IMG/VR virus record: IMGVR_UViG_3300009104_000072
Location: 1 to 32,389 of that record
Strand: one strand, 5' to 3'
DNA length: 32,389 nucleotides
Origin: a virus
The notes beneath the pieces are model-generated. The model was not told the origin of the DNA, made no database searches, and worked only from the letters and a program-made list of their open reading frames with translations. Every line of letters begins with the position of its first letter. Within the stretch, counting starts at the first letter, position 1. Both the position numbers and the translations under genes were made by a program. This document shows positions 2,297 through 26,604 of this stretch, in pieces.

Positions 2297-5200
2297 CTAT
2301 TTATTCCGTTCTCGTTTTTTCCGTTCTTCAAGAACGCGCTTACCGTATCCTGTTGACATAAATGGAGCATACTTATCGATAACCTTTGCAAAGTCCTGTC
2401 CGATCCAATCGGTATCCCCATCCTTCCAATATAAGTGTTTACCAGCTATTGGTATATGTCGTATCCACTTTGCTCCCCGCTTTTGGAAATCTCGCCATGC
2501 GTATTTAGCGGGGGTGCGGGTGTTTTTATACTTGTCTAAACGCCTATGCAAAAATTGTATATCTGAAATAGGATCATCGATATAATCTACAGGTGGGATG
2601 AGCATTTTAATTATTGCCTGAGAAGTTTTGCTGTTGATAAAGTTGTAATAATGATATCTAGATATTCCAGCGAGCTTTAGCAAATTAGAAACCACCAGTT
2701 CATCTAAGTCTGTTTTTCTTCCAGCCATCCAATCCTTTATGGTATCAGCACTTGCCTCTGCCATTGCCAAGACTGTTCCCAACATTACCATGTTCATTAT
2801 AGCGGAGGCGTGTTTACCCTCCTTCTTAAGCATATTAGTTTCATTGACAAACACATCAAATCTTTTGAGCATGAATGTTTTGAGCATATAAAATATTCTG
2901 CCATTAGGATGCCTCAAATAGCCTACAGGAACTTCAGACCTTGCAACTGGCTGTACGTCCAACAGTTCACTGTATGCTAAGAGTGTGGTTAGCTCTGTAC
3001 GCTTACCAGTAGATAGCTCTTGTATTAGTTGTGCATACTCTTTATCATTAAACTTTCTTTTGATGCGTCTTTGTATATCACGAGTTAGTTTGTTGTTTTT
3101 CCCGCGCTGTATTTGCTTTGCGCCCTTTTCAAAATTTTTCATCACGGTGTTGACATACGTTTCTTTACCAGCGCGATCCATAGTTGTTAAACCTGACAGT
3201 CTAAACACCCAAGTCATTGCTCTTTGTAAGGAAGTTTGATTATCACTCAACTCTTGCAGTATGCGATTGTCCACACCAAGCTGTTTAAGTTTATACTTGT
3301 TTAAACGGGTTATACTTTTAAACATCTCGCCCAACACATTAGTGTATGTAGACGGTCTAATTAGACCCAGTCTTTTACCTTTACTTGATCGATAAACAGC
3401 CACACCTAAATCTCCTAACTGTGTAACCGCGCTAAACACACTACCCATTGTTGATATATAGCCAATACTTCTTACCCCTGACCATAATGGGTGCATTGAG
3501 TCGTCTTTAAAATAAGTAGTCAGCAGTTCCCTGACTCTCTCAGTTTGATCGTTATTTAATTTATACTCTGACTGTAAATCTAATATCATTGATCCAACCT
3601 GATCTTCAAGACCCATATAAGGCAATCCAGTTCTACCTTGCTCTTCTATCCTGAGCTGTTCCATTGCTTTTTGGATTGCGGGTGACTTTCTATTTTTATA
3701 GACCAACAATCCGTTTTTCTCGTTCAATATAAAGCGTTTAACCCTATGATCGTATATACCCACCCCTTTGATCTTAGTATTCTTGGGCAACACTCTTACA
3801 CTATAACGGTTAGGTCTTCCCCCTAAAAACTGGGCGACAGCAATTTTCTTAGCCATGCCACTTCCATACCTTGCTAATGTGTTATGAGGCTCATCGTAAA
3901 AACGTAATTGGTCAACAGTTAGCTGATCTATTTTTCTAGATTGCGTCCACTTAGTGCTACTATTTAATAATCCTTTTTGCTGGCGTAATAATATATTGGC
4001 AATAGCCATTTTTTCCTCATCGGTCAGATCGCGTCCGCGCTTAGATCGAGCATCGTTAAAAGCCTCCTGTAGCTTGCTCTGTTTTGCTGATGCGGTAATA
4101 CCACTAACATACTTAAAGAAAGCACGATAATCGACAACTTCACGTGGGAAGTGATTTTCGATATGACCTATATCTACACCTACAGCCATTGCTTGTTCAT
4201 GCAGATTTTTATGAGCTTGTTGGAATGCTCTATACTGACTGATTCGTCGTTTAGATTTTAAAATTAATTCAACAGTAGCCGTATCACCATTATATAAAGC
4301 TAATTTAAGTGCTACATATTCAGCCTTTTTCTTACGACTCTTAGCTTTCTTTTTTAGTTTCTTAAGCGTTTTTCCAAATGGAGTAACTGCCTTTAGGTAA
4401 GCGTCTAAAAGGTCGCTTTCTCTCTTTTGATACCTACGAAGGCGTTCAGCTAATTTTGGGTTTATACGAGAAAGTTGAGATGAGATTGATTTAAATAAGT
4501 CACGTATTTGTCTAGGCTTATTAATACGCTCATCGCGTCTTGCATTTCTTGCCTCTCTGCGAGTAACCTTTTTATTAAAGGCTTTTGCGTATTCTTTTTC
4601 TTGGGCTTTGCCTAAACTAAAGCCCTCTCCTCTCTCTAACTGAGACTGGAGATTACTATATGCTTGTTTCCCTGTTTCAGAGACATAGCCTTCTTTTTCA
4701 AGTCTATTGACTTCTGAGTCCCAGTAGTCTCTAGAGTTTTTTCTGTTTTGCTTTTCTGAGAGGCTTTCGTTTTCCTCGACTCCTTCAAACGTAATACTGC
4801 CTCGTGTAGCTGTTGTTGTGTCATCTATAACTCCTTTGTCTTGCAAATCTAATGCAATTTTATCACCTAGATCAATGATTATTATTTTACCAGTATTGCC
4901 ACGTATCTCAATTGTGTGATCTATGCCTATGTCATTTAAATTATTTGATATTTCTATTACGCCTTGTTGATCTGTGATTGGAAATGAAGTTTCATAAACA
5001 AGATCACTTCCATTATTGTCAGGCTTAAAATGCATTACCTGATATTGATCCCCAAGTAAGCCCGCATAGGCAATATATAAATCAAGCGCATTTTGATCAG
5101 GATTTTCGACAGTAAATACCATACTGTTTTCTTTGCCAAATTTGTTTGTAACAGCACCCGCTTGTGCGTGTCTGCCATTAAGATTGATGTCTTTTGCAAC

Positions 5201-8104
5201 ATCAGCAAGTATGCCAAAATATCTTAATTCACGCTCACTGTTGATTGATTCGAACACCCCCTCAACAGTTGTTTCACCCTTCCTTCTAAATGTTGCCATC
5301 ACTTTGTCAGAATCCATACGAGCATCGAAAACTGACGGCTTTCCTTCTGAAAACGCTCTTAGCTCTTCCACCATCACTGATTCGCTAGGGACTACATATG
5401 CATTAGAACTTGTAGCGCGTAAATCACGATATTTCATAAAGGTTTGTGCATTTTTCGATACGCTAGGATCAATCGTATTGGTCAAAGTCTCTATGTTAAA
5501 TGGTCGCGACAATTCTCTAACATTTTTAAAAACAACTTGTGCTGGATAGGTATCGTGCTTTTTTGTTCTCTCATCACCTCTTAAGATTTTATCAAACTGT
5601 GCTACATATAAAACTTTACCACGATTTAGGTTAACATCAGGTTCGGAGACCATGCGCTCAACATCAATGCGTAACTGTTTTAAGGTTTTTCTATTCTTTT
5701 TTGCTTTGCGTGCATTTTTCTTTTTTTCAAGTTCAAATACTTCCTTGAAACGTGGATTGGATTGACTTGATGATTCTTTAGGGTATTGGTAAATAACAAT
5801 TACATCATTACCAGCTTTCGCTAGATTCTCTAGGGCTGTTGCACCGCGCTCACTTAATTGCCACCCACTATATTTTTCGGGGTATCTGATACCCTCAACA
5901 GATCGTCTACCTTTAGCATCTCTAGCAATAGCATCACCACCCATAACGAATATTCCACCCTCGCCACGTGAGCCAAGTGAAAATAATTCTATCTGACCCG
6001 ACTTGGTTTCTTTTGATACTTCTACTGGCTCGTAGTTGACCGCTTGACTTGCATCAGGAATATTATCAGATATTTCAAATCCATCAATTAAGTTTGTACC
6101 ATCATCTAATATCAATTCAGCTTTGAAAGACTCATTTAAGCTTTCAGGTAAAACCGCATAATCGGGAAGAGCAACATCGTACCCTAATCCTCTGATAAAT
6201 GCTTTGGAGAATAGCTCCTCCCCAGTATACGGCAATGACTCATTATTTAACTGAGCCTCATTTTGAACACCAGCTATCCATCCATCAATATCAGCCTTAA
6301 GCTCTGCGTTAACTTCGCCCATTCGGCTAAAGACAGCTTCTGCTGTATCCTCAAGGAAATCGGCTTGGGTTGCCTCTTTTGATAGCAAAACACGTCTTGT
6401 CCCGTCCCCGAATTCATAGTTTGTTGCTTGGACTGGAATTCGATATCTCTTAACATCGTCATCGACATATCCATCTTCTCCTTCCTTGATTTGTTCGTTT
6501 TCAAATTGACTTGGGTTGTAGTTCGCATCAATTAGTTGTTGTTCTGTAAATACATCTTCTATTGGCAATTCAGAAAATCCGATACCAATCTTATCTTTAT
6601 AATTAGTTAACTGAGATACTCTACCAGCGTATTCCGTTTCTACTTCTGTTGTCGGTTTTTGATACTGCTTAGTCTTTGCTGTAATAATGTCTTGGACTAA
6701 CGGATCGTTTTCAGGGACTTCAATGGAATTTCCGTTGTCAAAAGTTAGCCTGACTGTACCCGCCACTGCGCCTGTGCCAATCTCTACAACACTTTCTGCG
6801 ACGATAGCTGGTATATTAATCTGCTCACCTTCTTCAGGGTCTAAAGCAACTAATTGACCAATAGCCTCTCCCGTTCCACCAAGCCCAGCTTGAGTTAATA
6901 TTTCTTTACCTAAGGCGCTTAAGTTGCGGGTTAAACCCATACCTTTTGCCATTTTTAAATAGCGACCAGCAACACCACCACTAATAGCATCAAAAACAGC
7001 TACAGGAACACCTTTTTCCAAAGCCTCTTGTTGTGCCTTTGAATTAATTTCTTCGTTAGTAAATGCCTCCGCTAATTGATCGGGGTCTTTTACGTTAACT
7101 CCTTGCTGACTAAAACTGCCTAGTATTTCACTTGCCCATTCAATACCTAATGAAGTTATAAAACTTGTAGTTGCAATACTGAGAGCGATTGGTGCACCAA
7201 CCACAGCACCACCAACCATTACTGGTACACCAACAGCAATACCTGCTGGCAAAAATTGAGTAAGACTTTCGGTGGCAAGCTGTGCAGTAACAGCAATGGG
7301 GTCTGCTTTTAATTCTTTTAATGTTTGACCGAAATCGTTTTCAGGATTCATCGCCTTATCAAAGGTCTCCGATGCTGGCAAATCTTCTAATTTAGATTGT
7401 TCTATTGCAATCTGTCTTACACGCTCCTCAGGGTTAATACCCAACTGATACCCCAAAACATTGGTCATCGTTTTTAAATTACCATATCCCCTTAGAAACG
7501 CATTTTTTGCACCTTCTATTTCATCGTCAGAAATATCTAGAGCAGTCAACACATCGTTTTTAAAAGTTTCGTAATCAGACTTCTCTTGGTCGGGATTTAC
7601 TTTTGCAATTTCATTTCTAATGCCATCAGCAGTATGCTGACCAGTCTCTATGAGCTTGTCTATCTTTTTTTCTTGATTAGGAAACTCACTGTACAGTTTT
7701 TCTTTTTGTTTTAATAGCTTGTCACGATTTTTAACTCTGACCACTGCACCCTGATAGTTTTGTTCAGCTTGTGCTTGTTGTATCGTTCTAACATAATTGC
7801 TAACAGTTTCATTGTCGGGTTGGAGTCCAGTATAACGTGTAACAAATTTTAAAGTATCTTGACCTGTCTCGTCCCATATTTTATCAATAATATAGTTAGA
7901 TGCCATACGACCCGTTTCAGGGTCTTCATAGTAAGCAGTATATAAATTAGGTTGATTGGGTAGAGGGTCTCCTTTTCGTGCCCCAAATCGCGCTCCTAAT
8001 TCAGGAGTCCAAACATGAGCTCCAAAATTATTGTGACTTAAGGCTCGATTACCCCCCTCAAATAGGTCTACAACCTTATATAGAAAGCCATTTTTTTCAT
8101 TCAT
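2297..8104 (-). CDS. Giant 1935-aa internal virion / polyvalent ejection protein
   Basis: At 1935 aa this is by far the largest gene. Residues about 90-230 are charged and helical. Residues about 270-320 are a Gly/Ala/Val-rich hydrophobic stretch (AGIAVGVPVMVGGAVVGAP) that could insert into a membrane. Residues about 580-650 contain FLEDTAEAVFSRM, which looks like the helix of a polyvalent-protein metallopeptidase module without its HExxH. Residues about 1170-1300 are strongly basic, with ENHFPREVVDY further on. The C-terminal 500 residues (RSIGYISTMGSVFSAVTQLGD, then MDRAGKETY, MLKTFMLKRFDVF and a second hydrophobic helix near 1765-1790) match the style of large polyvalent protein-associated domains. 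By position, directly after two smaller internal-protein candidates, it probably travels in the capsid and is ejected with DNA, as gp15/gp16 of T7-like phages are. No lytic transglycosylase motif was recognised. The enzyme role is unassigned. Confidence 0.8.
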   Translation of the reverse strand: MNEKNGFLYKVVDLFEGGNRALSHNNFGAHVWTPELGARFGARKGDPLPNQPNLYTAYYEDPETGRMASNYIIDKIWDETGQDTLKFVTRYTGLQPDNETVSNYVRTIQQAQAEQNYQGAVVRVKNRDKLLKQKEKLYSEFPNQEKKIDKLIETGQHTADGIRNEIAKVNPDQEKSDYETFKNDVLTALDISDDEIEGAKNAFLRGYGNLKTMTNVLGYQLGINPEERVRQIAIEQSKLEDLPASETFDKAMNPENDFGQTLKELKADPIAVTAQLATESLTQFLPAGIAVGVPVMVGGAVVGAPIALSIATTSFITSLGIEWASEILGSFSQQGVNVKDPDQLAEAFTNEEINSKAQQEALEKGVPVAVFDAISGGVAGRYLKMAKGMGLTRNLSALGKEILTQAGLGGTGEAIGQLVALDPEEGEQINIPAIVAESVVEIGTGAVAGTVRLTFDNGNSIEVPENDPLVQDIITAKTKQYQKPTTEVETEYAGRVSQLTNYKDKIGIGFSELPIEDVFTEQQLIDANYNPSQFENEQIKEGEDGYVDDDVKRYRIPVQATNYEFGDGTRRVLLSKEATQADFLEDTAEAVFSRMGEVNAELKADIDGWIAGVQNEAQLNNESLPYTGEELFSKAFIRGLGYDVALPDYAVLPESLNESFKAELILDDGTNLIDGFEISDNIPDASQAVNYEPVEVSKETKSGQIELFSLGSRGEGGIFVMGGDAIARDAKGRRSVEGIRYPEKYSGWQLSERGATALENLAKAGNDVIVIYQYPKESSSQSNPRFKEVFELEKKKNARKAKKNRKTLKQLRIDVERMVSEPDVNLNRGKVLYVAQFDKILRGDERTKKHDTYPAQVVFKNVRELSRPFNIETLTNTIDPSVSKNAQTFMKYRDLRATSSNAYVVPSESVMVEELRAFSEGKPSVFDARMDSDKVMATFRRKGETTVEGVFESINSERELRYFGILADVAKDINLNGRHAQAGAVTNKFGKENSMVFTVENPDQNALDLYIAYAGLLGDQYQVMHFKPDNNGSDLVYETSFPITDQQGVIEISNNLNDIGIDHTIEIRGNTGKIIIIDLGDKIALDLQDKGVIDDTTTATRGSITFEGVEENESLSEKQNRKNSRDYWDSEVNRLEKEGYVSETGKQAYSNLQSQLERGEGFSLGKAQEKEYAKAFNKKVTRREARNARRDERINKPRQIRDLFKSISSQLSRINPKLAERLRRYQKRESDLLDAYLKAVTPFGKTLKKLKKKAKSRKKKAEYVALKLALYNGDTATVELILKSKRRISQYRAFQQAHKNLHEQAMAVGVDIGHIENHFPREVVDYRAFFKYVSGITASAKQSKLQEAFNDARSKRGRDLTDEEKMAIANILLRQQKGLLNSSTKWTQSRKIDQLTVDQLRFYDEPHNTLARYGSGMAKKIAVAQFLGGRPNRYSVRVLPKNTKIKGVGIYDHRVKRFILNEKNGLLVYKNRKSPAIQKAMEQLRIEEQGRTGLPYMGLEDQVGSMILDLQSEYKLNNDQTERVRELLTTYFKDDSMHPLWSGVRSIGYISTMGSVFSAVTQLGDLGVAVYRSSKGKRLGLIRPSTYTNVLGEMFKSITRLNKYKLKQLGVDNRILQELSDNQTSLQRAMTWVFRLSGLTTMDRAGKETYVNTVMKNFEKGAKQIQRGKNNKLTRDIQRRIKRKFNDKEYAQLIQELSTGKRTELTTLLAYSELLDVQPVARSEVPVGYLRHPNGRIFYMLKTFMLKRFDVFVNETNMLKKEGKHASAIMNMVMLGTVLAMAEASADTIKDWMAGRKTDLDELVVSNLLKLAGISRYHYYNFINSKTSQAIIKMLIPPVDYIDDPISDIQFLHRRLDKYKNTRTPAKYAWRDFQKRGAKWIRHIPIAGKHLYWKDGDTDWIGQDFAKVIDKYAPFMSTGYGKRVLEERKKRERNK

Positions 8105-8105
8105 T

Positions 8106-9521
8106 TTATTTAAATGAGCCGAATTTTCTTAGCATTTCAGATTCTTTGGATGGCTTTCGATTCGCCATTCTCATATATGCGTCAAACCCAGTTTTTGCAC
8201 CTGATTTAATGTCGTCTAAAAACTTTCCAATGACTTGTCTTTTTGCCTTATCTACTTTGTTTTTTTGGACAATTGATTTTTGGGCGCCACGCTTTCCACC
8301 AGCCATTGCCACTTTCTTTTGTGGGCTTGCGTATATTGATGCCTCTGCCATTGAAGGAATACGAACCCCACCTTGCTCTACTGGTGCATCTTGGGTTCGT
8401 CCTTTATATACTATAGAATCTCTATTAGGACTTGGTGGGCGAAGGCTTTCTTCATATCTCCGTAGCGCATCATTGGCTTTTTTATTATCAGCTTTAGCAC
8501 TCGCTATAAATCTTTTTTCCTTTTCAGCATCAGCAAATTTGGCTAATTGTTCATCCACAGTGCCACCCTTAGGTGTTGGTAGCTGTAGTCTATTTTTCTT
8601 TTGCTCTTCAGTTAATTTTTTACCCATATGTCTAGTATCTCTAAACATTCGTGGATTAGCATCTTTAAACTCTTGTGTCCAATATGAGTTTGGCATCATA
8701 CGCTTTGATATAGGATCGCGCACCATCGCATATTCGCCTTTGTTTTGAGCCTGTTCTTTTTTCACCTCGATGATGTGGTCTAAATGCTTTCTCCGCGCCT
8801 CTCTTTTAGCGGTGTCTCGTCCTAGCTTACCCATATTGGCAATCTCTCTGTCAGACATATTAGGTGGCGGTAGTGATCTACGATAGGCTCTCTCTGTTGA
8901 CGGATCGGGAGTAAATTTCTTTTTTGGTTGTAGGCTTTTTTGATAAGCTATTTCAGTCGGATTATTCATATCAGGCATTGGCGAAGTTTCACCAATTTTA
9001 TTATCAAAAAGACTTTGCTTTACCTGACCACCCGTAGAAGGTTGTTTGGTAATATCTACATTAGCACCACCAAGATTGGGGTTTGCCAGTTGATTATTTT
9101 GATTCCCTAGCGGATTGTCTTTCAAACCTTTAGCTTTAGAAATCAGCGATCTGCCAGCGTCAGAGACTCGTTTGAAAAATCCATCTTTTTTTGGCTCAGG
9201 CTGTGGTGCAGGGGTCGTTTCTACAGGGTTAAGACCAGCCTGTACTCGCGCCTGATTAGATATTTCATTTTCTCTTAAGGCATTATCATATATACCTTTT
9301 GAGATCGTTGCGTCAATTAAGTTACCCTGATTATCAGTTTTCCATTCTTTATAAGTGCCATCATTATCGATATATACGTCTCTAAACTTAAATTGCCTCA
9401 TTGTACGCAGGGCGTCATCTTGCTCACGGGATTTTCTTTCTGCCTGTAAAGTTAATAATTGTCCAAGAGGAGTTTGTTTAGGATCAAGTCGTTGCGTGCC
9501 GTACTGTATTTCTGCCATCAC
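8106..9521 (-). CDS. Hydrophilic internal virion protein candidate
   Basis: This 471-aa protein is very polar, rich in Lys, Arg, Gln, Asn and Pro, with no membrane segment. It contains several Pro-rich linkers (TTPAPQPEPKKDGFF near residue 105; RRSLPPPNMSD near 215) between short charged helices, and a basic C-terminus (GKRGAQKSIVQKNKVDKAKR). Two short similar segments, TEIAYQKSLQPKKKF and STERAYRRSLPPP, look like an internal repeat. It lies between the 152-aa candidate and the giant protein and overlaps the former by 4 nt. A flexible, basic, packaged protein that exits with DNA is the best guess. No family is recognised. Confidence 0.6.
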   Translation of the reverse strand: MMAEIQYGTQRLDPKQTPLGQLLTLQAERKSREQDDALRTMRQFKFRDVYIDNDGTYKEWKTDNQGNLIDATISKGIYDNALRENEISNQARVQAGLNPVETTPAPQPEPKKDGFFKRVSDAGRSLISKAKGLKDNPLGNQNNQLANPNLGGANVDITKQPSTGGQVKQSLFDNKIGETSPMPDMNNPTEIAYQKSLQPKKKFTPDPSTERAYRRSLPPPNMSDREIANMGKLGRDTAKREARRKHLDHIIEVKKEQAQNKGEYAMVRDPISKRMMPNSYWTQEFKDANPRMFRDTRHMGKKLTEEQKKNRLQLPTPKGGTVDEQLAKFADAEKEKRFIASAKADNKKANDALRRYEESLRPPSPNRDSIVYKGRTQDAPVEQGGVRIPSMAEASIYASPQKKVAMAGGKRGAQKSIVQKNKVDKAKRQVIGKFLDDIKSGAKTGFDAYMRMANRKPSKESEMLRKFGSFK

Positions 9522-23301: not shown

Positions 23302-23441
23302 TGTGGTGACGTTTATATGAGTTTATTGACAATTTGATGATTCGCTGGTGAACACACGACACACTGCCTGAGAGCTGTCGAGCGAATAAGAGGAGCTAAG
23401 TCTCTAGAATGCACTCCTCGAACCTATGTTTAATTCTCCTT
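23302..23441 (+). other. Long untranslated leader and divergent intergenic region
   Basis: About 250 bases between the amber-interrupted frame (23189) and the first tRNA-like element hold no gene. The leader can form GAGGAG (23390-23395) with CTCCTC (23414-23419), and competing pairings with TCGAG/CTCGA and the later CTCCTT, so alternative folds are possible. No confident minus-strand promoter for the packaging operon was found in 23190-23271, though the region is AT-rich and is the obvious place for it. Confidence 0.35.
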
Positions 23442-23486
23442 GAGCTGGAACGTGAAGGCGTTATTCAGTTCGTTACTGACCAGCTC
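23442..23486 (+). ncRNA. tRNA-like element A, no anticodon arm
   Basis: GAGCTGG (23442-23448) pairs with CCAGCTC (23480-23486) as a 7-bp acceptor-like stem. Inside, AACG/CGTT closes a D-arm-like hairpin with loop TGAAGG. TCAG/CTGA closes a T-arm-like hairpin with the 7-nt loop TTCGTTA (23469-23475), stacked directly on the acceptor. There is no room for an anticodon arm. It is the first of five elements with the same plan, and the only one with no coding gene in front. It is followed by a hairpin, an ACACAACAGGAG leader and the ATG at 23528. Confidence 0.65.
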
Positions 23487-23489
23487 ACA

Positions 23490-23505
23490 ACGACAACATT
23501 GTCGT
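23490..23505 (+). promoter_or_regulatory. Leader hairpin after element A
   Basis: ACGACA and TGTCGT form a 6-bp stem with an ACAT loop, 3 nt after the acceptor-like stem. The following bases to the Shine-Dalgarno (CAACACACAACAGGAG) are unpaired and C/A-rich. The layout repeats at each later element. Confidence 0.6.
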
Positions 23506-23527
23506 CAACACACAACAGGAGATAAAA

Positions 23528-23854
23528 ATGCTTTTAAAACAACAACCCGAAAAAATAGGGAATGAAAATGCTGAATATATTGAAGTATTCCTATCCAATG
23601 GAGATCGTCTTTGGATTTATGATGATAACGATGGATATGGCTGGGTTAAGCTTATAAGACACGACGATGTAGAAAAGTCGCTCGTGACTTCCTATACAAA
23701 AAGAGACAGAGTCGTTAGTAGAGAAAAGCGATTCAATAACACGATGGTCAAAGGTCGGACGATTGAATTGCGTTCTGAACGGAATGACGTGGAAGATAAC
23801 GACAAACGTACATTAGTAGAGGTGACACAGTTTTATCCACGAAAAAGAAGATAA
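23528..23854 (+). CDS. Unknown charged protein, first gene of the plus-strand operon
   Basis: This 108-aa protein is not recognised. It has an acidic beta-like first half (NAEYIEVFLSNGDRLWIYDD then DGYGWVKLI) and a basic second half (RVVSREKRFNN, ending FYPRKRR), without Cys clusters or membrane helices. The AGGAG Shine-Dalgarno is 7 nt from the ATG in the same ACAGGAG context used by most genes of this operon. Being first behind the promoter, it is likely made early after infection. Small unknown proteins in such positions often alter host functions or counter host defence, but nothing here shows that directly. Confidence 0.7.
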   Translation: MLLKQQPEKIGNENAEYIEVFLSNGDRLWIYDDNDGYGWVKLIRHDDVEKSLVTSYTKRDRVVSREKRFNNTMVKGRTIELRSERNDVEDNDKRTLVEVTQFYPRKRR

Positions 23855-23866
23855 CCAATAGTCGAA

Positions 23867-23888
23867 ATTCCCTGAGCAATCAGGGAAT
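23867..23888 (+). promoter_or_regulatory. 9-bp hairpin with GCAA tetraloop
   Basis: ATTCCCTGA (23867-23875) pairs perfectly with TCAGGGAAT (23880-23888) around a GCAA (GNRA) loop, 12 nt after the first gene stops. No U-tract follows, so it is not an ordinary terminator; it may protect an mRNA 3' end or bind a protein. Confidence 0.65.
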
Positions 23889-23889
23889 C

Positions 23890-23927
23890 ATCAGGAGTTA
23901 GCCTACCTGATCTGAAGAGACAGGCTA
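23890..23927 (+). promoter_or_regulatory. Possible H-type pseudoknot in the leader of the SprT-like gene
   Basis: ATCAGG (23890-23895) can pair with CCTGAT (23906-23911). TAGCCT in the resulting loop (23899-23904) can pair with AGGCTA (23922-23927). The two 6-bp stems are compatible as an H-type pseudoknot with loops of 3, 1 and 10 nt, or are alternatives in a switch. The ACAGGAG ribosome site and ATG follow after a C/A-rich spacer. This gap replaces the tRNA-like element found before other units. Confidence 0.45.
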
Positions 23928-23952
23928 CACAAAACAAACAACAGGAGATGTT

Positions 23953-24594
23953 ATGAAAATCGAAACGAGAGAACAGTGGTTAAACGAGATTGCTAAGTTC
24001 GTTAATCGTAGACTGTTTAAACGCCGTAAGATTCGTGGCTTTCAGGTCAAACCACTTGACCTAAAAACAGTTCAGTTCAACATGGCGTACAGCCCCAACC
24101 AGCGCATCAAAGCTCATGCACATAAAGGTGGTGTTGACGTTAAGCTCGGTCATATTGGATTGTGCCACTATGACTATAAGGTTGGCAATGAGCAGTTTGG
24201 TACAGAGATATTTATCACGCCAAACCTGACTGACCCAATCAAAATTGTAGGCGTATTAATCCATGAGATGATTCACGCTATCACTAAAGGACACGGTCAT
24301 AAAGGAGCATTTAGAGATATTGCTCTAGATGTAGGTCTAGAAGGTCGGATGACAGCCACCACGGTTGGACAGGAGCTTGCTGATGAGATTAAAAGCTGGA
24401 TTGCAAAAGTGGGCAAGTTACCTCATAATAAATGGATACCACGTAACGGTCGCAAGCAGTCTACACGTATGGTCAAGGCAGTATGTGATTGGGATCATTC
24501 TCCATATATCGCAAGACTGTCAAGGAAAGCGATAAGGGATCATGGCGCACCTATATGTCCAACGTGCTATGAACAAATGGATTTAGATTACTAA
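23953..24594 (+). CDS. SprT-like zinc metalloprotease-family protein
   Basis: This 213-aa protein carries HEMIH at residues 104-108 (the HExxH zincin motif) followed by TKGHGHKGAF, which supplies the third zinc ligand in the G-H-G-x-x-(F/W) form used by SprT/Spartan proteins. The C-terminal part has a zinc-ribbon-like arrangement, VCDWD near 175 and CPTC near 203, also normal for the family. Family members cleave proteins bound to DNA or act on DNA-protein crosslinks (known for Spartan). In a phage it might process a DNA-bound host or phage protein (inference). The start at 23953 is preferred over the ATG at 23948 for spacing to AGGAG. It overlaps the tiny gene behind it by one base. Confidence 0.75.
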   Translation: MKIETREQWLNEIAKFVNRRLFKRRKIRGFQVKPLDLKTVQFNMAYSPNQRIKAHAHKGGVDVKLGHIGLCHYDYKVGNEQFGTEIFITPNLTDPIKIVGVLIHEMIHAITKGHGHKGAFRDIALDVGLEGRMTATTVGQELADEIKSWIAKVGKLPHNKWIPRNGRKQSTRMVKAVCDWDHSPYIARLSRKAIRDHGAPICPTCYEQMDLDY

Positions 24595-24689
24595 TGGACG
24601 ACCAATTACTAGACAGGATCGGATACTACTTGTGCCTGATCACTGCGCTGTACTTGATCGGTCATATGATCGCTTGGGCAGTTAGATAA
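24594..24689 (+). CDS. 31-aa single-helix membrane peptide
   Basis: The ATG shares its A with the SprT-gene TAA (TAATG), so it is translated by coupling. The sequence is MDDQLLDRIGYYLCLITALY followed by LIGHMIAWAVR: a short polar start, one hydrophobic helix of about 20 residues and a C-terminal Arg. It is too short for ordinary ORF calling. The stop codon (24687-24689) overlaps the first base of tRNA-like element B. Function unknown; candidates are a membrane anchor or modulator for the upstream protease, or an envelope-active peptide. It is too short to call a holin. Confidence 0.6.
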   Translation: MDDQLLDRIGYYLCLITALYLIGHMIAWAVR

Positions 24690-24735
24690 ACTCAGAGCTG
24701 GTGCTCTAGGGTAGGTTCGATTCCTACCCTGAGTT
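24689..24735 (+). ncRNA. tRNA-like element B, no anticodon arm
   Basis: AACTCA (24689-24694) pairs with TGAGTT (24730-24735). GAGC/GCTC (24695-24706) closes a D-arm-like hairpin around TGGT. GGGTAGG/CCTACCC closes a T arm with the canonical loop TTCGATT (24716-24722). The acceptor-like plus T stems add up to 13 continuous pairs, against 12 in an ordinary tRNA and 13 in bacterial tRNA-Sec. No anticodon arm or variable loop is present. It is the most tRNA-like copy. The stop codon of the upstream gene overlaps its first base. Confidence 0.75.
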
Positions 24736-24737
24736 CT

Positions 24738-24752
24738 GTGACATGGTGTCAC
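24738..24752 (+). promoter_or_regulatory. Leader hairpin after element B
   Basis: GTGACA and TGTCAC form a 6-bp stem with a TGG loop two bases after the element. An open TACACAGAGAACATAACACA stretch and AGGAG then lead to the ATG at 24782. An upstream in-frame ATG at 24743 lies in this hairpin and has no ribosome site, so it is not used as the start. Confidence 0.6.
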
Positions 24753-24781
24753 TACACAGAGAACATAACACAGGAGATAAC

Positions 24782-25024
24782 ATGGCAAACAAAAGCAACA
24801 CTATCACCTTAAGAGACTGGAAGAGCAGAATGAATAAAGCCAGTCTTACAGAATGTGATGAAGTTCTAGATAAGATTGCTAAGGCTAAGTCAAATAGTAA
24901 CTCAGACTACCTTTCAATTCAAGCCAACCTTAAATGGACAGACTTAGAAGGTTGGGTAAGTGATAGAAAACGACACATTCACTTTTTGTCCGATTTGCTC
25001 GGATGGGAAGGAGGTATTGAGTGA
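24782..25024 (+). CDS. Unknown 80-aa helical protein
   Basis: The start at 24782 follows CACAGGAG by 7 nt, so the longer 93-aa reading is rejected. The protein begins MANKSNTITLRDWKSRMNKA and continues with charged helices (ECDEVLDKIAKAKS; DRKRHIHFLSDLLG) and no recognised domain. Its final bases are shared with the next gene in a GTGA overlap, so the two proteins are coupled in translation and may form a complex. The small size and early-operon position fit an accessory or host-takeover gene, which is inference. Confidence 0.65.
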   Translation: MANKSNTITLRDWKSRMNKASLTECDEVLDKIAKAKSNSNSDYLSIQANLKWTDLEGWVSDRKRHIHFLSDLLGWEGGIE

Positions 25025-25317
25025 TTCAAAAAAGTAAAGTCAAAAAGCTGATTAATTCTAATGGATTATCGGTGAGCTCACAGTCTTATGACTCTATCGA
25101 GCGTGTCGTAGCTGAGGTTATAGATCAGCTATGCGATAACGTCCGAGAAGACAATATGAAGACGCTCATGCCACATCACTGTGTTCTTAGGCACAAAACG
25201 GTGACTGAGAAAGCTCCAAAAGATGGAGTCAATCTTAAGCCACAGTTTTACAAGTGGGCTAGGACAGTGCAAGACTTCTGCCACGAACAGGCTACAATCC
25301 TGTCGAAAGAAGTCTAA
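25021..25317 (+). CDS. Possible histone-fold protein
   Basis: Starting at GTG in a GTGA overlap, the 98-aa protein has an N-terminal half that resembles a single histone fold. It has a short helix (KVKKLINSNGL), a loop with SVSS, a long central helix (SYDSIERVVAEVIDQLCDNV) and then R-E-D-N-M-K-T-L-M-P-H-H, close to the (R/K)-(K/R)-T-(V/L)-x-P-x-x-(V/C) ending of archaeal-histone-like domains. The C-terminal 40 residues are an extra helical part. A DNA-binding or coupling-factor role with its neighbour is possible. The fold is judged by eye. The stop codon (25315-25317) contributes the first base of element C. Confidence 0.5.
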   Translation: MIQKSKVKKLINSNGLSVSSQSYDSIERVVAEVIDQLCDNVREDNMKTLMPHHCVLRHKTVTEKAPKDGVNLKPQFYKWARTVQDFCHEQATILSKEV

Positions 25318-25360
25318 GGATAGTTTGGAATTTGGGGAGGTTCGATTCCTCCCCTATCCT
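25317..25360 (+). ncRNA. tRNA-like element C, no anticodon arm
   Basis: AGGATA (25317-25322) pairs with TATCCT (25355-25360). GGGGAGG/CCTCCCC closes a T arm with the exact loop TTCGATT (25341-25347). These make 13 continuous pairs. The segment between acceptor and T arm (GTTTGGAATTT) keeps TGG, as in a D loop, but has only a weak hairpin. Stem sequences differ completely from element B yet pair perfectly. The element begins at the last base of the upstream stop codon. Confidence 0.75.
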
Positions 25361-25361
25361 C

Positions 25362-25379
25362 AAGGACAATTAAGTCCTT
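25362..25379 (+). promoter_or_regulatory. Leader hairpin after element C
   Basis: AAGGAC and GTCCTT pair around the loop AATTAA. Elements D and E have the same loop with AAAGGC/GCCTTT, so the stem shows compensatory change. TACACAAAAAACAGAAAGGAG follows as open leader up to the ATG at 25406. Confidence 0.7.
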
Positions 25380-25405
25380 ACACAAAAAACAGAAAGGAGT
25401 TGCTG

Positions 25406-25645
25406 ATGCAATTCACTCAAGTTGATAAGCTGTCTTTTACCCCAAGAGGAATAAAGAAGGGCACACTGAGAAAACGTACATGGATGAATAGGCTAAAAGT
25501 CGGCGAGGCTAAGGTCTATAAATCGACATCACCTATCATCCTGAATAGGTTGAGGAATCAGGTGTCAAGATTCAACAAGCTTAACGGCAAGAAACTTTCG
25601 GTAAGATCACTTGCTGAAGGAGGATTTGCTGTAATCAGAGTATAG
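25406..25645 (+). CDS. Unknown basic 79-aa protein
   Basis: The start at 25406 has AAGGAG 7 nt upstream; the longer 140-aa reading runs through the preceding gene and element and is rejected. The protein (MQFTQVDKLSFTPRGIKKGT start) is basic throughout, with KRTWMNRLKVGEAKVYKST and LNRLRNQVSRFNKLNGKKL, and ends SLAEGGFAVIRV. It could bind nucleic acid, in style like a small beta-alpha regulatory or AP2-like fragment, but no family is recognised. It has its own tRNA-like leader, so it is translated independently of its neighbours. Confidence 0.65.
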   Translation: MQFTQVDKLSFTPRGIKKGTLRKRTWMNRLKVGEAKVYKSTSPIILNRLRNQVSRFNKLNGKKLSVRSLAEGGFAVIRV

Positions 25646-25657
25646 CAAGTTGGATGT

Positions 25658-25701
25658 AGGGTATCTTGGAGTTTAGGTGGGTTCGATTCCCGCCATACCC
25701 T
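25658..25701 (+). ncRNA. tRNA-like element D, no anticodon arm
   Basis: AGGGTAT (25658-25664) pairs with ATACCCT (25695-25701). GGTGGG/CCCGCC (with one G-U pair) closes a T arm with the loop TTCGATT (25682-25688), again 13 continuous pairs. The connector CTTGGAGTTTA keeps TTGG. The upstream stop codon is 12 nt ahead, so a terminating ribosome would cover the 5' strand. Confidence 0.75.
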
Positions 25702-25702
25702 C

Positions 25703-25720
25703 AAAGGCAATTAAGCCTTT
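25703..25720 (+). promoter_or_regulatory. Leader hairpin after element D
   Basis: AAAGGC and GCCTTT pair around AATTAA, one base after the element. ACACAAACAGGAG follows, giving the ribosome site of the gene starting at 25739. Confidence 0.7.
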
Positions 25721-25738
25721 ACACAAACAGGAGCTATT

Positions 25739-25939
25739 ATGAAAGAGACACTATCACGACAAGAATGCTGGGATTATTTATTATCCCAACACAATAATGA
25801 TGTGAGTAAAACAGCCCTAGCGATGTTAGAGGTACTTACAGGTGGAGCGAGTGATTTGTGGGATGATGAGAAACATGAAAGTTTCACATCAGCCCTCATA
25901 AAAAGGTATAATAAAGTAAAAGATAAGGGTCAAGGGTAG
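25739..25939 (+). CDS. Unknown acidic 66-aa helical protein
   Basis: The product MKETLSRQECWDYLLSQHNN continues VSKTALAMLEVLTGGASDLW and ends with a basic tail KRYNKVKDKGQG. It is mostly helical and has no recognised domain. The ribosome site is ACAGGAG, 6-7 nt from the ATG. The end is notable: its codons AAG-GGT-CAA-GGG-TAG form the 5' strand of element E, so the C-terminal residues and stop are fixed partly by RNA pairing. Small acidic proteins in phage early operons are frequent inhibitors of host factors; nothing shows this here. Confidence 0.65.
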   Translation: MKETLSRQECWDYLLSQHNNDVSKTALAMLEVLTGGASDLWDDEKHESFTSALIKRYNKVKDKGQG

Positions 25940-25977
25940 CTTGGTAGCTTGGGAAGGTTCAATTCTTTCCCTACCCT
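25933..25977 (+). ncRNA. tRNA-like element E, no anticodon arm, overlapping a coding end
   Basis: AGGGTA (25933-25938) pairs with TACCCT (25972-25977). GGGAAGG/CTTTCCC (one G-U) closes a T arm with loop TTCAATT (25958-25964). AGCT-TGGT-AGCT can form the D-arm-like hairpin, competing for one acceptor base. The stop codon of the upstream gene (TAG, 25937-25939) lies wholly at the acceptor/D junction, so translation to the end of that gene and folding of the element exclude each other. Confidence 0.72.
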
Positions 25978-25978
25978 C

Positions 25979-25996
25979 AAAGGCAATTAAGCCTTT
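25979..25996 (+). promoter_or_regulatory. Leader hairpin after element E
   Basis: AAAGGC and GCCTTT pair around AATTAA, identical to the hairpin after element D. ACACAAAACAGGAG follows and leads to the ATG at 26017. Confidence 0.7.
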
Positions 25997-26567: not shown

Positions 26568-26604
26568 AAAAGCCCCCTTAGGATTATTCCTTTGGGGGCT
26601 TTTT
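26568..26604 (+). terminator. Rho-independent terminator between convergent operons
   Basis: AAAAGCCCCC pairs with GGGGGCTTTT (10 bp, GC core of six) around a 16-nt loop that has its own AGGA/TCCT stem. A run of seven or more T follows on the plus strand. On the minus strand the same stem is followed by TTTTAG, so it can also stop the convergent replication operon. It marks the end of the plus-strand operon. Confidence 0.85.

Follow-up and report, generated by a model that had tools for sequence, protein, structure and literature searches.

In mitochondria, sense-strand tRNAs stand between the coding genes of polycistronic transcripts and are thought to be excised by RNase P and RNase Z, and in animals mascRNA and menRNA, which occur in one copy each in MALAT1 and NEAT1 and keep a reduced anticodon arm, act as tRNA-like processing signals within longer transcripts. 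The tRNA-like structures of plant RNA viruses are located at the 3′ terminus and are often aminoacylatable and pseudoknotted, and in T7 mRNA RNase III cuts long intergenic hairpins devoid of tRNA features. Among phage RNAs, M3 of phi80 and the C4 antisense RNA of P1/P7 are RNase P substrates (PMC11143913). In cluster K mycobacteriophages, SAS and ESAS repeats lie just 5′ of the starts of small non-structural genes, SAS being a 13-bp GGGATAGGAGCCC repeat overlapping the ribosome-binding site (RBS) and ESAS consisting of imperfect 17-bp inverted repeats with a variable spacer of 4–13 bp (PMC3203893). Here we analyzed the entire IMG/VR virus record IMGVR_UViG_3300009104_000072 (32,389 bases; "the window"), in which short tRNA-like elements lacking an anticodon arm lie between the small genes of a plus-strand operon. 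These elements and their relatives form an RNA family with strong covariation, which may be best explained, at a probability of roughly 0.45 from sequence comparison, as cis-acting mRNA punctuation in which an RNase Z-type enzyme would cut after a discriminator-like base.

By analogy, mitochondrial tRNA punctuation and mascRNA are closest to the elements in working principle. Mitochondrial units are working tRNAs, whereas the phage elements possess neither an anticodon arm nor CCA and are not functional tRNAs; furthermore, unlike in mitochondria, excision at the 5′ side would destroy many stop codons. mascRNA and menRNA are likewise tRNA-like structures inside transcripts, but the phage elements lack the anticodon arm altogether and occur in multiple copies. 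Plant-virus structures are also viral mimics of the acceptor/T domain, whereas the elements are internal, present in many copies and carried by DNA phages. The cutting of T7 mRNA by RNase III combines a host endonuclease with intergenic structures, as proposed here, and differs in the plain hairpins that it uses. Compared by description, M3 and C4 resemble the elements in mimicking the acceptor stem of tRNA, but they are single small or antisense RNAs rather than intercistronic repeats. SAS and ESAS are the nearest described intergenic repeats and differ in both sequence and structure: ESAS is conserved in sequence and its description includes neither a T-loop nor a D-like hairpin, whereas the elements vary in sequence while pairing is kept, and the RBS regions here read CAGGAG or GAGAGGATGG. 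The intergenic repeats of HF2 are promoters and unrelated (PMC8707807).

No description of the element was found in the open-access literature searched, and the searched passages of articles about Endor1 and further Camvirus phages make no mention of such elements. Within that literature, the statement of the preliminary description that no phage system of this form was known was upheld; given this open-access scope, priority is not certain.

A covarying fold without an anticodon arm

The covariance model R1 was built from nine gapless copies of equal length, two from the window and seven from its relatives. With the terminase as bait, 30 loci were retrieved, about 20 of them carrying a terminase 79–89% identical, and a SprT-like gene as bait returned only 2 contigs. 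Most relatives with the adjoining operon covered carried elements, always on the strand opposite to the terminase. An R1 search of 391 kb returned 42 matches below an E value of 3e-6 and no further match up to E 1.

Pairing was preserved through extensive sequence change. Among 31 distinct sequences of the window clade, 99.3% of cells were paired, 13 of the 15 pairs had changes in both bases, with a covariation score of 0.805 compared to 0.206 in shuffled and at most 0.212 in slid alignments; the 2-bp D-like helix covaried as well. For 88 distinct sequences that combined the clade with other phages, mostly of the 13-bp type, the corresponding values were 99.0% paired cells, double-sided compensatory changes in 13/15 pairs and a score of 0.931 (shuffled, 0.197). 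Separate support came from 30 distinct actinophage sequences (99.7% paired; 0.806 versus 0.158 shuffled). The claim that structure is selected while the stem sequences drift, originally made from the five window copies, thus held in every helix of two independent sets (88 and 30 distinct sequences). Decayed tRNA genes or chance hairpins would account for the tRNA-like letters of the T arm and D loop, but this explanation is already refuted by covariation, with 99% of pairs kept through compensatory change, and is made still more implausible by the strict placement at junctions and by the absence of elements in 100 shuffles and on reversed genomes.

The family architecture comprises a 13-bp coaxial acceptor/T-arm helix, a 7-nt T loop and a tiny D-like hairpin with GG, with no anticodon arm. 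The TTCRANT sequence of the T loop was kept, and its closing G-C pair was found in 88/88 sequences. In the window clade, the last 1–2 bases of the upstream stop codon often lie inside the element, whose acceptor strand starts with A and is followed by the D-like hairpin with a TGG loop. The TTCRANT T arm leads into a 3′ acceptor strand ending in U, then an invariant C at the discriminator position, with no CCA. In most copies a second, independently varying hairpin (e.g., AAAGGC-AATTAA-GCCTTT) begins 0 or 1 nt later, and the leader continues with an unpaired ACACAAACA-like linker, CAGGAG and ATG. In the actinophage form, the acceptor has 5–6 bp, the connector reads ACTGGCAGACA or AACGGTTTTCG and the T stem has 6 bp; position −1 is A, and an A at the discriminator precedes a C. 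The length of the helix was fixed in each group, being 13 bp in 36/36 copies of the window clade and 11–12 bp in 50/50 actinophage copies. We relied on this distribution rather than on the count of copies with pairable −1 and 73 bases because the scan, which extended helices to 14 bp, partly sets the latter.

The elements share with tRNA (RF00005) the T arm and a TTCRANN-type loop closed by G-C. A cloverleaf is excluded because the connector, 9–16 nt in nearly all copies, is too short for D and anticodon arms, and ARAGORN called no tRNA in the window or in the Send513, Cuke and Endor1 stretches, in agreement with the initial statement that no copy has an anticodon arm. An ARAGORN call of tRNA-Phe at 8416–8487 of locus L005 was false, reusing the T arm of an element. 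Neither in the window nor in nine carrier loci did any Rfam family attain its gathering score; the best sub-threshold tRNA-like hit in the window was tRNA-Sec, at 25.4 bits where the cut-off is 47.

Occurrence in phages and placement at gene junctions

Other phages were searched with a degenerate DNA pattern that required no pairing and fixed the A at base 1, the 3′ TC, the TGG and the T loop; since these letters were preset, part of their conservation beyond the window clade and the actinophages is due to the pattern itself, whereas that of pairing is not. In viral contigs, 42/92 distinct hits among the matches listed formed 12 or all 13 of the pairs, compared to 4/110 distinct 45-mers among the matches listed for cellular genomes, where the pattern was stricter by one T-loop base. 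The element is rare in cellular genomes, and ARAGORN identified many of the cellular hits on which it was run as tRNA genes, with tRNA-Gly the most frequent. The marker genes of metagenomic carriers were unrelated, ranging over several families of terminase as well as HK97-type capsids, portals and RecE, and a gene on the same strand nearly always followed the element.

The element used as a BLAST query led to Mycobacterium phage Send513, whose genome contains 13 elements, each of them on the coding strand, and 0 in the reversed control; other reversed genomes scanned as a control also contained none. Ten elements were found in a 12-kb stretch of Mycobacterium phage Cuke, nine in the whole genome of Streptomyces phage Endor1, and 8, 7, 7 and 4 in stretches of Damien (Mycobacterium phage), Lika, Aleemily and LittleE, respectively. 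A 57-nt query matched 164 phage records, 111 from Streptomyces and 26 from Mycobacterium phages; nearly all of the best-covered records listed had no annotation at the site. The fold thus recurs in several unrelated phage lineages, both metagenomic and cultured. Leads from other cultured phages (P-GSP1, Kvothe, Javan68, phiR1-RT, vB_PseuGesM_254, Glenn, SPO1 and phi-Grn1) were not elements; in SPO1 (L302, 2970–3050) a lone tRNA T-arm sequence, distinct from this element, lies in an unannotated gap 5′ of the tRNA genes. In L066, L079 and L095 the element is followed by a long, conserved sequence that resembles a hairpin (CTCCTGCATAGCAGGGCTCG...TAATGCAACGA...GGGAGG), and L013 has another structured intergenic segment (GGGGTGGTC...CCACCC; 6540–6600, minus strand) at a junction that lacks an element.

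In Send513, Cuke, Damien and Endor1, the element was present in 34/56 same-strand junctions of at least 55 nt compared to 0/57 of at most 20 nt (p 2.5e-14). The likeness to mitochondrial punctuation lies in this sense-strand placement of a tRNA-like element between cistrons, with transcripts here inferred from genes. Gordonia phage Aleemily has genes in both orientations, and the strand of its elements matches the direction of transcription in each. The intercistronic placement noticed originally in a single operon is therefore strongly supported in several unrelated lineages. Four minus-strand elements of Mycobacterium phage LittleE (L307, 4485–6125) flank a two-gene minus-strand cassette, gp33-gp34; two of these four lie antisense within the annotated gp35 (5923–6312), which may be misannotated.

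A single element located shortly after the gene for an HK97-type major capsid protein in L059 (5338–6623), L064 and L119 suggests a role in capsid mRNA ends. These single copies are also what would be expected if the element capped or stabilized the 3′ end of the upstream mRNA, or acted in termination or antitermination, with no tRNA enzymes involved. This appears improbable to us, as no U-tract follows the element, leader copies have no upstream gene, and the tRNA identity of the T and D loops would be needless.

Structures in the window operon

The window is a short genome of the tailed-phage type, with terminase, portal, capsid and internal virion proteins encoded on the minus strand and the small-gene operon on the plus strand at 23.5–26.6 kb; a DNA similarity search of the whole operon against cultured phages gave no match. 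All five structures of the preliminary description were present at their positions, and an architecture scan found 5 in the window compared to 0 in each of 100 dinucleotide shuffles. In copies 2–5, as originally described, 13 coaxial pairs run without interruption, the connector contains TGG and the loop is TTCGATT (three copies) or TTCAATT; copy 1 has 7+4 pairs and TTCGTTA.

The second element (e2; 24689–24736, plus strand, as are all features of the operon below) contains the 13-bp helix, a 4-bp D-like hairpin GAGC/GCTC with loop TGGT, the TTCGATT loop and C at the discriminator position. It scored 48.5 bits with R1 and folded at −23 kcal/mol (z −3.67). Its base 1 is the final base of the stop codon TAA (24687–24689) of a 31-aa open reading frame (ORF) at 24594–24689, and a GTGAC/GTCAC hairpin (24738–24752) starts 1 nt past its discriminator-like C, followed by the Shine-Dalgarno (SD) sequence CAGGAG and the ATG at 24782. 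In e3 (25317–25361; 71.2 bits, E 4e-19 with R1), base 1 is likewise the final base of a stop codon (25315–25317), and the hairpin AAGGAC-AATTAA-GTCCTT (25362–25379) immediately follows the C, before ACACAAAAAACAGAAAGGAG and the ATG at 25406. Immediately 3′ of the C of both e4 (25658–25702; 63.8 bits) and e5 (25933–25978; 53.4 bits) is the hairpin AAAGGC-AATTAA-GCCTTT, at 25703–25720 and 25979–25996, respectively, which precedes an SD sequence and the ATG at 25739 or 26017. The acceptor strand of e5 includes the stop codon TAG (25937–25939) of the upstream gene (ORF 25739–25939).

The leader copy e1 (23442–23486) combines a 7-bp acceptor-like stem GAGCTGG/CCAGCTC, a D-like hairpin AACG/CGTT and a 4-bp T-like hairpin with loop TTCGTTA, and its fold has −20.5 kcal/mol (z −3.88). 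L005 (9105–9185) and L013 (9000–9080) have the same three-stem fold at the corresponding position, with compensatory changes. Since the T loop of e1 lacks the canonical A58 and the copy scored only 2.1 bits with R1, we kept it apart as a divergent cousin, not a proven member; the idea that all five copies are one family therefore applies to e2–e5 (48–71 bits). A hairpin ACGACA-ACAT-TGTCGT (23490–23505), whose counterpart in L005 also folds, lies 3′ of e1 and before the SD sequence and gene 1 (ATG 23528). The leader 5′ of e1 (23340–23440; GAGCGAATAAGAGGAG...CTCCTCGAACCTATG), which is strongly conserved in L005, may be the site of a promoter or of a further structured RNA.

The junction between genes 1 and 2 contains two plain hairpins (ATTCCCTGAGCAATCAGGGAAT and TAGCCT...AGGCTA; 23855–23952) in place of an element and retains the ACACAAAACAAACAACAGGAG leader; the hairpin ATTCCCTGA/TCAGGGAAT and the TAGCCT/AGGCTA repeat at 23867–23943 are followed by an SD sequence. 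At comparable early junctions of L005, L004 and L016 an element is present. The proposal that each copy precedes a translational unit and that none occurs at an overlapping stop/start held, with the correction that a unit may go without a copy, as does the one following 23855–23952. The operon ends in a strong hairpin AAAAGCCCCCTTAGGA/TCCTTTGGGGGCTTTT (26568–26603) that resembles a bidirectional terminator between converging transcription units. Elsewhere in the window, a 1935-aa protein (2297–8104, minus strand) had no PHROG match.

Predicted cleavage and its meaning for phage operons

Enzymes that process tRNA ends read the acceptor/T helix and the elbow. The feature under selection here is the tRNA elbow with an acceptor/T helix of precise end, not the anticodon. 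We propose that the elements mimic the part of a tRNA that is read in 3′-end processing, the acceptor/T-arm helix with the D/T-loop elbow, and that a host tRNA 3′ endonuclease of the RNase Z type would cut directly past the discriminator-like base, which is C in most lineages and A in actinophages. The downstream cistron would then begin with a short 5′ leader, often with a stabilizing hairpin at or near its end before the SD sequence, while the upstream cistron would acquire a compact tRNA-like 3′ end resistant to 3′ exonucleases. Junctions with stop/start overlap would stay uncut because translational coupling is needed there.

Three observations favor a 3′ cut. CCA at positions 74–76, the absence of which after the discriminator is, together with the acceptor/T-arm helix, a feature of RNase Z substrates, was found in 0/133 copies, and A73-C74 occurred in actinophages only. 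A hairpin started 0–5 nt past the discriminator in 30/36 copies of the window clade (0.3 in shuffles) and 33/50 actinophage copies (1.9 in shuffles). Finally, the stop codon straddled base 1 in 69/133 distinct copies (26/36 in the window clade, 12/50 in actinophages and 31/47 in other phages), so that a 3′ cut would spare the stop codon and a 5′ cut would remove it.

The same counts bear on excision by RNase P, acting either by itself or jointly with RNase Z in the mitochondrial manner. RNase P acts on acceptor/T-arm minihelices, and the ends of the helices here are precise. The enzyme also processes some polycistronic mRNAs besides M3 and C4 (PMC11143913), and the A that 43/50 actinophage copies have at position −1 points to a possible reading of the 5′ flank in that group. 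However, those 69 copies would have their upstream stop codon removed or split by a cut on the 5′ side of base 1, base −1 in the window clade is A or T with no clear preference for U, and a 3′ RCCA is absent, which makes such excision unlikely. The earlier suggestion of tRNA mimics that cut or control a polycistronic mRNA through a host factor would accordingly survive, as the best reading of these sequences, in its RNase Z rather than its RNase P form.

Alternatively, the element could remain uncut and serve as a 5′-leader module aiding ribosome loading or mRNA stability, for example with an elbow bound by the ribosome or by a T-arm modification enzyme. Elements are also found before the first gene (e1 in the window; 797 in the Endor1 locus L301), the start codon lies 20–50 nt downstream in many phages, and T-arm enzymes would find their T-loop and G53-C61 determinants intact. 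Like excision by RNase P, this alternative is a serious rival but less likely than an RNase Z-type cut, since it leaves unexplained the fixed helix end, the discriminator-like base and the onset of the hairpin at a nearly fixed point, and in several phages the start codon is only ~20 nt past the element.

Several facts weigh against punctuation by an RNase Z-type enzyme. An uncut translation or stability element would explain the placement almost as well, and a leader copy has no upstream cistron to release. The acceptor/T helix of most tRNAs has 12 bp, and that of the elements has 13 or 11–12 bp. Protection by a hairpin is not universal, as only 8/47 copies in other phages are followed by one. 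The device is also dispensable, because 22/56 wide junctions lack it and the relative L020, with overlapping genes at the same operon position, has zero elements.

With somewhat less than an even chance, and as far as sequences can tell, the elements are a widespread, previously unrecognized RNA family through which phages of different bacterial groups would punctuate their messages by a general code of tRNA mimics devoid of an anticodon, a host 3′-processing enzyme yielding gene-sized mRNAs with tRNA-like 3′ ends. An abundant class of structured RNA has apparently been overlooked in long-studied phages, including Streptomyces phages Lika, phiCAM and Joe and Mycobacterium clusters H and R, because tRNA finders reject the fold and Rfam has no family for it. 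If the proposed code is true, the elements would give phage annotation pipelines a new mark for the borders of gene units and provide a compact part for mRNA processing, and phages would own a tRNA-style punctuation resembling that of mitochondria, a question that M. smegmatis and S. coelicolor would allow to be tested directly.

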